From the NCBI GenBank assembly GCA_947632345.1, contig CANROW010000007.1, positions 1-53,912 of the forward strand: a stretch of DNA of 53,912 nt, given 5' to 3'. The notes under the pieces were generated by a model. The model saw only the letters and a program-made list of their open reading frames with translations. It had not been told where the DNA came from and made no database searches. Origin of the DNA: an uncultured Bacilli bacterium (lineage in GTDB: Bacteria > Bacillota_I > Bacilli_A > RF39 > UBA660). Numbering within the stretch: position 1 is the stretch's first letter; each line of letters begins with the position of its first letter. Below, one piece after another: positions 681 through 10,561 of this stretch. The translations under genes were made by a program, and so were the position numbers.

Positions 681-792
681 ATTATCTGTTTTTTTTACTA
701 ATTTATAGTTACCAAATATTACCGATAAAAATTTTTGAGTTTTTTTAAGACAATTGGCGCCTTTTCGCGAATGATATATATGGAGGGTGTTT

Positions 793-1059
793 ATGAATCA
801 AGAAAAAATTCATTTAGTAAACAAAATATTTAATAACGAAACAATTAGGACAGTCTGGGATAAGGAACAAGAAAAATATTTTATAAGTGTTGTCGATATA
901 GTTGGTGTTGTTTCAGAAAGTGATAATCCGAGAAATTATTGGAAAGTTTTAAAACATAGACTAAAACAGGAGGGAAATGAGTCGGTGACAAATTGTCACC
1001 AACTGAAATTGAGAACTTCAGATGGCAAATATTATAAAAAGGAGGAATTAAAATGTTAG
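793..1059 (+). pseudogene. Truncated Bro-N / phage antirepressor-like protein
   Basis: I chose the ATG at 793, 6 bases after GGAGG at 782-786; a GTG at 787 is in frame but too close. The 88 residues match the N-terminal Bro-N domain of phage antirepressors and DinD-like proteins: an IRTVWDKEQEKYFISVVDIV strand region, the NPRNYWKVLKHRL helix, then VTNCHQLKLRTSDGKYY. Complete relatives continue for another 100-200 residues after the DGKYY motif; here the frame ends a few codons later. The domain binds DNA in phage and transposon proteins. Most likely a decayed mobile-element relic, possibly still expressed as a single domain. Confidence 0.7.
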
Positions 1060-1202
1060 CAACTGAAGTGAAAGATTTTAAAACCACTAAAAATTGAAGC
1101 AATGCAATTAGCAATATTTCAATAGGTGAAAGTGTAATTACTAGTGATAAATCCTTAAGTTATGAATATGCCAACGAGAAAGAAATTGAAATGAAAAATT
1201 AA
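1053..1202 (+). pseudogene. Short remnant frame interrupted by TGA
   Basis: A good binding site (AGGAGG at 1040-1045) precedes the ATG at 1053, but the frame stops at a TGA after 14 codons (1095-1097). The same frame then stays open for 34 more codons to TAA at 1200-1202. Together they would give about 50 residues ending in SLSYEYANEKEIEMKN. No family is recognisable. It probably belongs to the decayed mobile gene just upstream. The rest of the gap up to 1252 holds only the binding site of the next gene. Confidence 0.3.
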
Positions 1203-1252: not shown

Positions 1253-2599
1253 ATGGCAGAAATGACAAATGAAGAAAGAGAAGTATTAAGACGTACTCTT
1301 CAGATAATTGTTGATGATGTAGAGAAACTTTATTTGGATCGTTCAAAAATTGAAGATCCTTTGCTTGGTGAGGATAATAGGCCTTATGCTGTTTCTGTCC
1401 CTGTATTCTCTATCTCTTTAAAAGATGACAAGTTTGAAATAGTCTATCAAAGACCTTATTATATGCCTTGTAAGGATATGTATTACCCGCCATCATTCAG
1501 ACAAATTTTGCTTCCCAAGAAAGTTTCCATTGATTTGATGCTTGACTTGTATTATATTCATTATATTTATTTTCAATCAAAAAGGGATTTTGATACTAAT
1601 GTGAGTGATGTTATAGCTGATTATATTGAATTTTGTCTCGATTACCCGAGAATAAGAGAGGTATTTAATAATTCCTGTAAAATAAATCCGGAATTATTGG
1701 ATAAACAATTAGAAGAACTCCGTAGCATACTTACAAGGCATGATGAAGATGCTGTCATTAATTTGAACTTAAAGAATGTGGAAGAAGAAAATGATGAAAC
1801 AAATAGAGATGACGAGTGTGTACCTAGATATTACATTAGTTTCTGTGGAGCTGAAAAAAGTGATATCCAATTCTTAAAGAGAAAATACTTGACGAAAGTA
1901 AAGACATTTGCTTTTGATCAAACTGTCCAAATTATTGATAATGGTGATATCAAGTTGCTAGAACAGCCATTAGATAAAGTAATAGAGCCATTTAAAAAGT
2001 ACGAAGATATTAAAAATGATATTGCTAAAAATATGGATTATTTATTTTCAATAGTCATCGCTGATTTACAGGAGATTGTAAAATATTCAAGAGATAAAGG
2101 TAAGAAGAACATCCTCTATAAGAAACCATTATCTATCTTTAATGATTTAGGAAAATTGGATTACTTAGAACTAAATGATAGTGGAATGGTAATGGATTTG
2201 AATGGGCAAAAGAAAATTTATTTGAAGTTTCATGACGATAAAAAATGTTTGTGTTATGAAGATGATACAATTTTAACTGGTGATTTACAATTAGAGTTTT
2301 TAAAAAAATATCTCCTTTTACGCGAAGAATTAATAAAACGAGCTCATATCAAGCGTGTGGCTAGGCAGCAACTCATAAACAAATTTACGCCGAGTTCGCA
2401 GGCTCAAAAAGTAACTTTGGAATTGCCGTCTACTCTAAATCAATATGAAATGATTATTGCAAAACGAGAAGGACAACCAACAAGAGGTATCATCCATTTG
2501 AATGATGTAGTTATTGAGTTATTGGCCAAAGACCAAATCGTCTTATCAAGTGAGATGCCAAAAGAGAGAGAAAAGAATAAAATAAAAAGATTGAAATGA
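1253..2599 (+). CDS. Unknown protein A of a three-gene paralogous array
   Basis: 448 residues, start ATG after GAAAGGAGGAAG. No known family is recognised and no signal peptide or membrane segment is visible, so it is probably cytoplasmic. It is an internal duplication. Each half has a helix of type IIVDDVEKLY (near residue 18) or IVIADLQEIV (near 270), then a helix with a YPRIREVF or YLLLREEL pattern, then a beta module ending in a hydrophobic run plus D-I/Q-I-x-L. The first beta module lies near residues 190-240, the second near 385-435 (VTLELPSTLNQYEM, then GIIHLNDVVIELL and DQIVLSS). The tail is basic (NKIKRLK). It is followed 19 bases later by its paralog. Confidence 0.8.
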   Translation: MAEMTNEEREVLRRTLQIIVDDVEKLYLDRSKIEDPLLGEDNRPYAVSVPVFSISLKDDKFEIVYQRPYYMPCKDMYYPPSFRQILLPKKVSIDLMLDLYYIHYIYFQSKRDFDTNVSDVIADYIEFCLDYPRIREVFNNSCKINPELLDKQLEELRSILTRHDEDAVINLNLKNVEEENDETNRDDECVPRYYISFCGAEKSDIQFLKRKYLTKVKTFAFDQTVQIIDNGDIKLLEQPLDKVIEPFKKYEDIKNDIAKNMDYLFSIVIADLQEIVKYSRDKGKKNILYKKPLSIFNDLGKLDYLELNDSGMVMDLNGQKKIYLKFHDDKKCLCYEDDTILTGDLQLEFLKKYLLLREELIKRAHIKRVARQQLINKFTPSSQAQKVTLELPSTLNQYEMIIAKREGQPTRGIIHLNDVVIELLAKDQIVLSSEMPKEREKNKIKRLK

Positions 2600-2618
2600 T
2601 TTAAAAGGAGGATGGGTT

Positions 2619-4067
2619 ATGAAGACTATGACTTCTGAACAATTGAAAAATCTTGAGATAATAGTTCAAGAAATTGTTGATGATATCCATAATATTTTTA
2701 TTGATCCCATCTTGGAAAATGAAGAAAAAGACTTCGTTATTCCGTGGCGTGAGTTTAATAAAAGTGAAGAATGGTTTCCTCATCGCCTTTTGTGGTCTAG
2801 TGATATGCTTGTTTTATATTTTGATAACTTTACATTAGAAATTCCCAAAAAAGTTTGTATTAGAAAAATACGGTGGGGTTCAACGTTTAGTGCTCATCGT
2901 CTTTTTGATGATGACTTTGATTATTATTATAATCGTGAGTTGTTTATGCAAAATCCTGAATTAGCTACAGATGCTATCATCAATTTTTGTCATAATTACC
3001 CAGCCTTTCGGAAAAAAATGATAAAATACGCTAGAAGGCATAAAGTTAGTTCTATACCACAAAAATTGAGGGTTTCAGATCGTCAATATTTACAACGTGA
3101 TTTAACTGTATCTTTAGATAGGACTCCAACATCAAAGATTGATATCCAACGCCAAGATGGAGTGAATATTGGTAACATTAAAATTGGTAATCAAGCAATC
3201 ACTATCTTCACCCGTGGCAATATTATTACTAAACCTCTAGCTAAACCAAGTGATAATAGATTAAGAATTAAAAAGAATATTGTTATCGAAAATGATACTA
3301 GCAGTTTATTAAATTCATTAGTTAATCGCCATTTAAATAGTGATAATATCATTGATTTTGGTAGCCAAACTATTCGAATTGCTGACTTGGATGATATCAT
3401 TTTGTCGCCCAAAAAACAAAAACAAAATCTATCTCTTCCTTTTATTCCATATTTGTCTTATGATGCTATTTTGAATGGCAGGAGGAAACAAACAGACTTC
3501 CTTTTGTCGATGATTACTGATGATCTTCGCCATATTAAAGAAGCATCTCCTAAAAAAAAAATAAAAGTTGAAGTAACAAGAATGAATACGGAAGTATCAG
3601 AATTTCTCCCTACAAAGGAGCGCATACGTTTTGAACTAAAAGATGATGAATTCACTATTTATAGATATCCTAAATGTAGTCGATTGGGAAGAATTAGTTT
3701 AATCGATGATTTAGAAAACTCCTATATTTCAGAACATCTCAATTTTCATGAATGTTATATACTAGAGTTTCTTCAAAATTATTCAAGAATTAGAAGTCTA
3801 TTAATTGGAGCCAGTAAAGTAAAAAAATCCCAATTAGACGAATTAGAAGAGTCTGAACCGGATTTGAAAAATGATGGTGGCGAAGCCAATGTTGAACTTC
3901 ATTTAACGCCATCTCTAAATTTGCACGAAATCCAAATCAGTCATCAAAATGGTCGAACGATTGGCACTATTTCTTTTGCTGATGAAACTTTACATTTAAT
4001 GACAAGCGCTGATATTGTCTTAGTAAAAAGAAAAGATGAGAAAGCCGAAAAGACCAAAATAAAATGA
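2619..4067 (+). CDS. Unknown protein B of a three-gene paralogous array
   Basis: 482 residues, ATG 7 bases after AAAGGAGG. Same architecture as its two neighbours: helices IIVQEIVDDIHNIF (near residue 10) and MITDDLRHIKEAS (near 295); YPAFRKKM and YSRIRSLL helices; beta modules near residues 165-205 (SKIDIQRQDGVNIGNIKIGN) and 425-475 (LNLHEIQISHQNGRTIGTIS). A further degenerate copy of the beta module sits near 225-268 (IIDFGSQTIRIADLDDIIL), so this member may hold three. Basic tail KTKIK. No catalytic motif, membrane segment or signal peptide is visible. Function unknown. Confidence 0.8.
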   Translation: MKTMTSEQLKNLEIIVQEIVDDIHNIFIDPILENEEKDFVIPWREFNKSEEWFPHRLLWSSDMLVLYFDNFTLEIPKKVCIRKIRWGSTFSAHRLFDDDFDYYYNRELFMQNPELATDAIINFCHNYPAFRKKMIKYARRHKVSSIPQKLRVSDRQYLQRDLTVSLDRTPTSKIDIQRQDGVNIGNIKIGNQAITIFTRGNIITKPLAKPSDNRLRIKKNIVIENDTSSLLNSLVNRHLNSDNIIDFGSQTIRIADLDDIILSPKKQKQNLSLPFIPYLSYDAILNGRRKQTDFLLSMITDDLRHIKEASPKKKIKVEVTRMNTEVSEFLPTKERIRFELKDDEFTIYRYPKCSRLGRISLIDDLENSYISEHLNFHECYILEFLQNYSRIRSLLIGASKVKKSQLDELEESEPDLKNDGGEANVELHLTPSLNLHEIQISHQNGRTIGTISFADETLHLMTSADIVLVKRKDEKAEKTKIK

Positions 4068-4076
4068 GGAGGAAGT

Positions 4077-5402
4077 ATGAAAGAAAAACTATCTACAGAT
4101 CATATCGAAGAAAAGTTACAGCCAATCATTGATGATTTGTTATCTATAATTGGTATTTATTATGAATATCGAACGGATAGAGATCTTTTTTATGATGATG
4201 CTGTTATCATTCCATCAAATAAAATCAGTCGCTTTTCGGAACTTGAGCCATTTTTAACCATCTTTCAGTCGATCCCTTCCGAAGTTCATATTCCTCTAAA
4301 AGCTGATTTGAATACAATTCTCCGTCCAGAAGGGCAACCACTTATTAAAGAAGTTACCTATGATGATGTTGAGAAATATTGTCAAACTTATATTTCAAAG
4401 CGCGATCAGTTCCTAAAAAAATATGATAATTTTGTAGATGCCAAAAATATTCCTTGGTTGGATCAATATTTGAGTAATGATATAACCTTACATTTGGCCA
4501 ATATATCAGATTATGATGCTATGACAGAAACAAAAGACGCAGGGCGAAAAATTACAACGTTAAAAATTGGTAATCAATTGATAAAGATGATAAGCGATGG
4601 TCAAATTTTTTCTTTTTGTGGCGATGATAGAGTATTAGATAGCGGTTTGATTAAACTTAAAGACCAATATGCCACTCATGGCATCATCAATTTAAAAAAT
4701 AAAGATGTCATCATTCAAAATGCTGGTAATATTGCTTTATCAACACAATCGGAAAGTTCTGAAGAACATTCTTTGGTTTTAAAACAAATAAATTTATTTC
4801 ACTATATTTACTATCGTCAAAGCGTTGACTACATTTCGTCTTTAATTGATGAAGATCTTCAAACAATTTTAAATCATATTTATTATTATCGACCAATCGA
4901 TTTTTCAATCAAAATTAAATCAGAGATTTTTAAATCGGGAGCATATGATATTTATTTAACGGACCATAAGTTATCAATGACCCATCGTTGGAATGAGCAA
5001 GTATATAAATTTTATTTTGATTCCTTTTTTACAGATTATAAATTAATAGCCACAAAAAAACAAACCACTACACCAGTTTGGCCTAGAAAGGGAAGTGTCG
5101 ATGAAGAAATGGAGTTCTTTCATCTATATCCACAAATTCGGAAACAATTGCTAAAAGAAATTTTTGGTAAAAAAATTGGTAATGCCTTTAAAGGTGAATT
5201 TCCCCAAAAAGCTAAACCTGTTGAATTAGATTTAGGATATCCTGAATCATTAAATCTAAATGAAATCACAATTACGAAAATAGATGGTAAAAACATTGGT
5301 AAGGTGATGCTTGAAGATAAATGCTTATATCTTGTAACTAGTGGTGAAATAAAGTTGAATACCGATGTTGTCGATTCATTAAAAGTTAAAAGATTAAAAT
5401 AA
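4077..5402 (+). CDS. Unknown protein C of a three-gene paralogous array
   Basis: 441 residues, ATG after GAGGAAGT, 9 bases downstream of B, so co-translated. It repeats the family plan: helices LQPIIDDLLSIIG (near 12) and ISSLIDEDLQTIL (near 255); YPQIRKQLLKEI near 355; beta modules near residues 135-180 and 380-430 (SLNLNEITITKIDGKNIGKV, then YLVTSGEIKLN). A partial extra module lies near 190-220. Tail SLKVKRLK closely matches the tail of protein A. Probably an alpha/beta scaffold or binding protein. The ATG after its stop belongs to an unrelated small gene. Confidence 0.8.
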   Translation: MKEKLSTDHIEEKLQPIIDDLLSIIGIYYEYRTDRDLFYDDAVIIPSNKISRFSELEPFLTIFQSIPSEVHIPLKADLNTILRPEGQPLIKEVTYDDVEKYCQTYISKRDQFLKKYDNFVDAKNIPWLDQYLSNDITLHLANISDYDAMTETKDAGRKITTLKIGNQLIKMISDGQIFSFCGDDRVLDSGLIKLKDQYATHGIINLKNKDVIIQNAGNIALSTQSESSEEHSLVLKQINLFHYIYYRQSVDYISSLIDEDLQTILNHIYYYRPIDFSIKIKSEIFKSGAYDIYLTDHKLSMTHRWNEQVYKFYFDSFFTDYKLIATKKQTTTPVWPRKGSVDEEMEFFHLYPQIRKQLLKEIFGKKIGNAFKGEFPQKAKPVELDLGYPESLNLNEITITKIDGKNIGKVMLEDKCLYLVTSGEIKLNTDVVDSLKVKRLK

Positions 5403-5490: not shown

Positions 5491-5766
5491 ATGTTTAATA
5501 ATGGATTAGGTGGATTTAATCCAAATAGTTTTAATACACCATCACATAATTTGCAAACGGGCAATATTGCAGGTCTTAATAAGAATCCAAGTAATGTGGC
5601 TGGCGTTAATAATGGTCATCACAATTTAGCGGGAATGAGTAAAATGCCTAGAAGACAAAATCCTTTTAAAAGTGTTTATCGCGACAATAGTGGACCAGCT
5701 AAGCAAGTAATGAATTCACAAGGACAAAATATTTTTCATAATGATGCACGCGGCATTAAGAATTAA
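5491..5766 (+). CDS. Small Asn/Gly-rich hypothetical protein
   Basis: 91 residues with start ATG 6 bases after AGGAGTG, a TATAAT box at 5461-5466 upstream and a perfect terminator downstream, so a stand-alone transcription unit. The protein is low in hydrophobic residues. Residues 25-50 contain three spaced copies of an N-[IVL]-A-G-[LVM] unit (NIAGLN, NVAGVN, NLAGMS). A basic patch PRRQNPFKSVYR follows. No signal peptide or membrane segment. It looks intrinsically disordered; function unknown. Confidence 0.65.
   Translation: MFNNGLGGFNPNSFNTPSHNLQTGNIAGLNKNPSNVAGVNNGHHNLAGMSKMPRRQNPFKSVYRDNSGPAKQVMNSQGQNIFHNDARGIKN

Positions 5767-8453: not shown

Positions 8454-10561
<2,108 letters not shown>

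Follow-up and report, generated by a model that had tools for sequence, protein, structure and literature searches.

What are the three adjacent genes at positions 1253 to 5402 of a contig from an uncultured Bacilli bacterium, and what might such genes do? The window analyzed here is this contig in full (C7, 53,912 nucleotides), part of a draft genome (G000) of 1.19 Mb that is 78% complete. An earlier note on the same DNA had described the genes as an array of diverged, co-translated and internally duplicated paralogs of no recognized family, suggested a hetero-oligomer or a set of binding proteins under diversifying pressure and allowed for a defence or mobile-element role, proposing structure prediction, profile searches with single repeat units and a survey of homolog neighborhoods as checks.

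Three doubled proteins in the window

Genes A (1253..2599), B (2619..4067) and C (4077..5402) are intact open reading frames on the forward strand, encoding the 448, 482 and 441 residues that had been read from them. With gaps of 19 bp between A and B and 9 bp between B and C, and a GGAGG-type ribosome-binding site ahead of each gene, they probably form one operon, in line with the co-translation that had been proposed. Pairwise, the proteins are paralogs of 22-24% identity, matching one another at E values of 1e-9 to 1e-13, so the description as diverged copies holds.

Each protein is made of two copies of a unit of about 200 residues, in which a head is followed by a small beta module. Both halves are matched by profiles built without A, B and C, one from eight single-unit relatives and one from 55 members. 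Every one of the six halves outscores the best of 1000 shuffles when the 55-member profile is used (A1 27.6 vs 10.9 bits, A2 46.9 vs 16.0; B1 55.7 vs 10.7, B2 89.1 vs 10.7; C1 23.0 vs 14.0, C2 62.0 vs 11.8), bearing out the doubled plan of the earlier note. A and C have weak, strongly degenerate first halves, and C1 does not rise above chance with the eight-member profile.

B is the clearest two-unit member of the three, running from head 1 through a first C-terminal module (CTM 1; 3102..3233, matched by profile), an extra beta copy with the sequence IIDFGSQTIRIADLDDIILS (3339..3431, residues 244-269; 10-11 bits by profile) and head 2 to CTM 2 with its Lys-rich tail (3894..4064; CTM profile, E 1e-21). 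A, likewise matched by profile, comprises head 1 (residues 1 to ~175), a degenerate beta copy between the units (residues ~215-239), head 2 (~256-382) and a CTM with a basic tail (2399..2596, residues ~383-448; CTM profile, E 2e-15). C has a reduced head 1, CTM 1 (4443..4610, matched by profile), a weak extra beta copy (residues 202-227, also a profile match), head 2 and CTM 2 with a basic tail (5217..5399; CTM profile, E 5e-18). The third beta copy noted for B, and more hesitantly for C, is therefore real in B and weak in C, with a degenerate equivalent in A. As all three proteins share the order unit, beta copy, unit, a single fusion followed by triplication is the simplest history, and their ancestor probably fused two units before triplication, giving rise to bivalent versions. 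The tree cannot prove this sequence of events because its branches are too long: the window units find no firm placement, and the second halves group together at only 93/74.

The model of a single-unit member (pLDDT 81) predicts a helix, four strands, a helix and a 44-residue helix, after which come a module of three strands and a basic tail that is disordered. Full-length B gave a poor model (pLDDT 49), too poor for fold comparison, so the shared fold of its halves is supported only by profile matches and the predicted order of elements.

A single-unit family in one genus and its chromosomal slots

Weak matches to A within the genus proved to be single-unit genes of about 200 residues, and profile searches with the single unit revealed 55 further family genes. 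Carriers are five of the nine species of the genus, with 9-15 matches each, so that copy number ranges from none (four species) to 15, in tandem arrays of 5-10 genes plus singletons slotted between housekeeping genes. Family-bearing relatives include "Lapin" (rabbit) assemblies (CANQWJ010000002, CANPXE010000003) and an assembly from goat rectum (JAFSDH010000004). The three-gene array is thus not the whole story it was first taken for: A, B and C are an offshoot, the most divergent members, doubled in plan, of a genus-wide single-unit family.

Outside the genus, no convincing member was found among 385 genomes sampled evenly from the taxonomic family and 395 sampled likewise from the class; only the top candidates per genome were scored in these samples, so that very divergent relatives could be missed. 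G189 gave a match at 5.5e-4, and a match in G018 is a VanY peptidase, a chance similarity. A search of 116 relatives with the CTM alone gave no convincing member outside the genus either. Pfam, NCBIfam, PHROGs and PADLOC provide no consistent family for A, B and C or for all members, in agreement with the earlier note, which had recognized none. Paper searches turned up no described family of this kind, and none of the libraries searched describes these sequences as a family. FlgD_ig was matched by 9 of the 55 members (best 0.0013) and phosphatidylserine decarboxylase by two to three, both being weak, apparently chance beta-hairpin similarities; the best PDB profile matches (E 0.14 for the whole family, 0.043 for the module) were rejected.

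The survey of homolog neighborhoods placed the family in several housekeeping slots. Slot 1, bounded by lysS on one side and a DcuC-type transporter on the other, ahead of clpC and prfB, holds seven genes in G000, at least seven in G002 (at a contig edge) and five in G008, and is empty in G003, G004, G005, G006 and G007. At the end of this array in G008 lies a 235-aa gene of no assigned family on the opposite strand (L045:4771-5478, G008:C3). Slot 2, which lies between rplS/lepB and the gene that follows trmD, carries arrays of seven genes in G002, ten in G003 (one of them short) and nine in G007, as well as four and three genes on two contig ends in G008; it is empty in G006. In G005, a species without the family, the same position is taken by a different, coiled-coil-like gene of 625 residues with no Pfam match (L124:4451-6328, G005:C3). 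Singletons occur at several places, among them the vicinity of rplU and a site next to an ABC-F-type gene; the rplU singleton is adjoined by a SirA-type sporulation inhibitor of replication (PF10747, E 1e-12; L039:5682-6116, G000:C26).

Slot 3, ahead of a small gene and spoIVB, holds A, B and C and is occupied in G000 only; in G008, G004, G003 and G007, xseA, the small gene and spoIVB are found without A, B and C between them. The xseA side in G000 lies on a separate contig, C26, at whose end stands a copy of the same phage-type gene that is found upstream of A, so the two sides are presumably adjacent across the gap. The small gene (window 5491-5766), which precedes spoIVB in the same four species, encodes a 91-aa Asn/Gly-rich protein with no Pfam match. 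At the other end of the window, an open frame at the contig edge (1-657) has weak DUF4367 similarity (E 0.008) and is followed by a terminator-like hairpin.

Fast heads, conserved modules and a J-domain fusion

Within arrays, heads share about 16-33% identity and CTMs with their Lys tail about 31-61%; between orthologs of two species, the module is 90% identical and the head sheet 68%. Over their last 168 nt, the third and fourth genes of the G000 lysS array are 97.6% identical, vs 51.7% upstream of that, a split indicative of segmental gene conversion, and their heads are each closest to a different gene. Repeats in this array span the 3' end of one gene into the 5' end of the next (8831-9105 vs 9486-9760, 91%), and a leader with a promoter-like site is present twice. 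The 3' ends of neighbors are homogenized while the heads evolve faster, and the conservation of the module may stem partly from gene conversion rather than function.

Most family genes of G002 have one-to-one orthologs in the sister species G008, with array order kept. Between these two species, the family evolves at dN/dS 0.11-0.46 vs 0.04-0.20 for five neighboring genes, meaning that the genes are under constraint yet fast-evolving. The diversifying pressure suggested earlier is borne out only in part: the genes evolve faster than their neighbors, under selection that is purifying overall.

That the module is separable from the head is evident from one gene in G000 (L038; G000:C2:7011-7586), in which a J-domain (residues 1-65; PF00226, E 8e-26, HPD present) is followed by the family CTM with no head. 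This fusion is the single occupant of the trmD-rplS slot in G000, where four other species hold arrays. Common ground with J-domain proteins is confined to this one slot gene, a J-domain with HPD being absent from A, B, C and the other members.

The near-invariant residues of the family are one Tyr in the head, Gly, Ile and Thr in the module and Lys in the tail, which do not resemble a catalytic set, and the family shows no hydrophobic stretch of the kind seen in membrane or signal anchors. Foldseek found no match at E 0.001 against PDB and viral models; low-scoring rows for dsRNA-binding domains and polo boxes were set aside. The top structural alignments, covering the head and long helix, are to the Leptospira flagellar coiling proteins FcpA and FcpB (PDB 6pwb, 6nqz; Z 5.9/5.4 over 99/116 residues, rmsd 3.9/8.7), where Z below 8 may reflect a mere common arrangement. 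The likeness lies in the head and long helix; unlike FcpA and FcpB, the family bears no sign of export, and no sequence relation to them is seen.

A proposed binding repertoire and its alternatives

Conservation, the one J-domain fusion, the predicted structure and the non-catalytic residues together point to a variable binding head joined to a constant docking module. We tentatively favor the reading, held at somewhat less than an even chance, that A, B and C are two-unit fusions and belong to a family of soluble cytoplasmic proteins peculiar to this genus, whose fast-diverging heads sit on a conserved docking module. The proteins would best be read as soluble, non-enzymatic binders, diversified in the manner of the esaG, tipC and lpl arrays. 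The heads would recognize different partners, and the common module would dock every member onto one shared partner or assembly, a role suggested by its conservation and the J-domain fusion. In one species, the module would also dock a J-domain, and hence DnaK, onto this shared partner. Unequal recombination between the similar 3' ends could enlarge the repertoire. An extended version, in which variable heads, a constant docking module and gene conversion make up a repertoire system that passes its targets to Hsp70 through the J-domain partner carrying the same module, strikes us as improbable.

The esaG and tipC genes and the lpl genes of S. aureus form tandem, non-identical paralogs with conserved blocks, their copy number altered by recombination through these blocks (PMC9484751). 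By mode of evolution, the family is a variant of such recombining arrays, sharing variable tandem paralogs, conserved blocks and recombination through them. By analogy, it could be an orphan immunity repertoire, each head neutralizing a different toxin of competing gut bacteria as EsaG or TipC does, and the matching evolutionary signature, together with soluble, fast-evolving members whose copy number differs among species, lends this idea some credit. We nevertheless consider it doubtful: the LXG toxin domain (PF04740) was found in none of the nine genomes, some of them incomplete, with a positive B. subtilis control; no obvious toxin gene lies beside any array; A, B and C match no immunity family in Pfam or NCBIfam, and among the 55 members a single one weakly matches Imm44 (E 0.0075). 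Most genes are one-to-one orthologs between two sister species, and in one slot the gene encodes a J-domain fusion. Unlike EsaG, TipC and lpl, moreover, the family occupies several separate housekeeping slots per genome, includes two-unit fusions, has its C-terminal module on a J-domain as well, and shows no linked toxin and no profile-level sequence match to them. Rather unlikely, in our judgment, is a structural hetero-assembly, in which the members would be subunits of a cytoplasmic fiber or particle joined by their beta modules and specialized through duplication. The long helix, the common tail, a beta module present up to three times in B and the array order kept by sister species would fit such a structure, yet a range from none to 15 copies in one genus is unusual for a fixed composition, and four species do without the family altogether.

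Two further explanations draw on the surroundings of A, B and C. The phage-type gene directly upstream (787..1199, forward strand), which does not belong to the family, is decayed as the earlier note had seen. Its remnants at window 793-1032 and 1098-1196 correspond to the two ends of a 284-aa gene that is intact in the genus and assigned to PHROG 15286 (function not annotated); the middle is deleted, and stops are present. This neighbor, the second copy beside xseA at a contig end of the same genome and the family slots that are empty in relatives would suit phage defence or mobile-element cargo, a role we regard as very unlikely since PADLOC gives only seven scattered single-member matches (best 1e-5), neither one IMG/VR scan nor tblastn of phage and plasmid records with individual members as queries yielded a homolog, three carrier species are devoid of the phage-type gene, and A, B and C have a base composition inside the range seen in the remaining window. 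The defence or mobile-element role raised by the earlier note is thus not supported. Equally prompted by location, as the array adjoins spoIVB, is a role as spore coat or forespore proteins, which are often lineage-specific in the case of coats. SpoIVA and SpoIVB occur in all five carriers and both are missing at the family threshold from three of the four non-carriers, an association that is, however, confounded with kinship; G004 has both proteins and no family member, and array leaders, judged by eye, carry sites resembling those of sigma-A, with an extended -10 (TTGCTA-17-TGTTATAAT), instead of sporulation boxes, the promoter consensus scan as a whole not being enriched over shuffles. We deem a spore role very improbable. 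As a separate observation, the absence of SpoIVA and SpoIVB at that threshold from G001, G005 and G006 suggests that sporulation was lost within the genus.

These gut bacteria, with small genomes of about 1.0-1.7 Mb, devote up to about 15 genes to a one-genus family that the libraries leave unnamed. The family offers a compact case of a variable protein repertoire, with birth, duplication, homogenization and dispersal among chromosomal slots. Should the heads bind toxins of competitors or host or phage factors, this would reveal a mode of recognition in bacteria that have so far been seen solely in metagenome assemblies.
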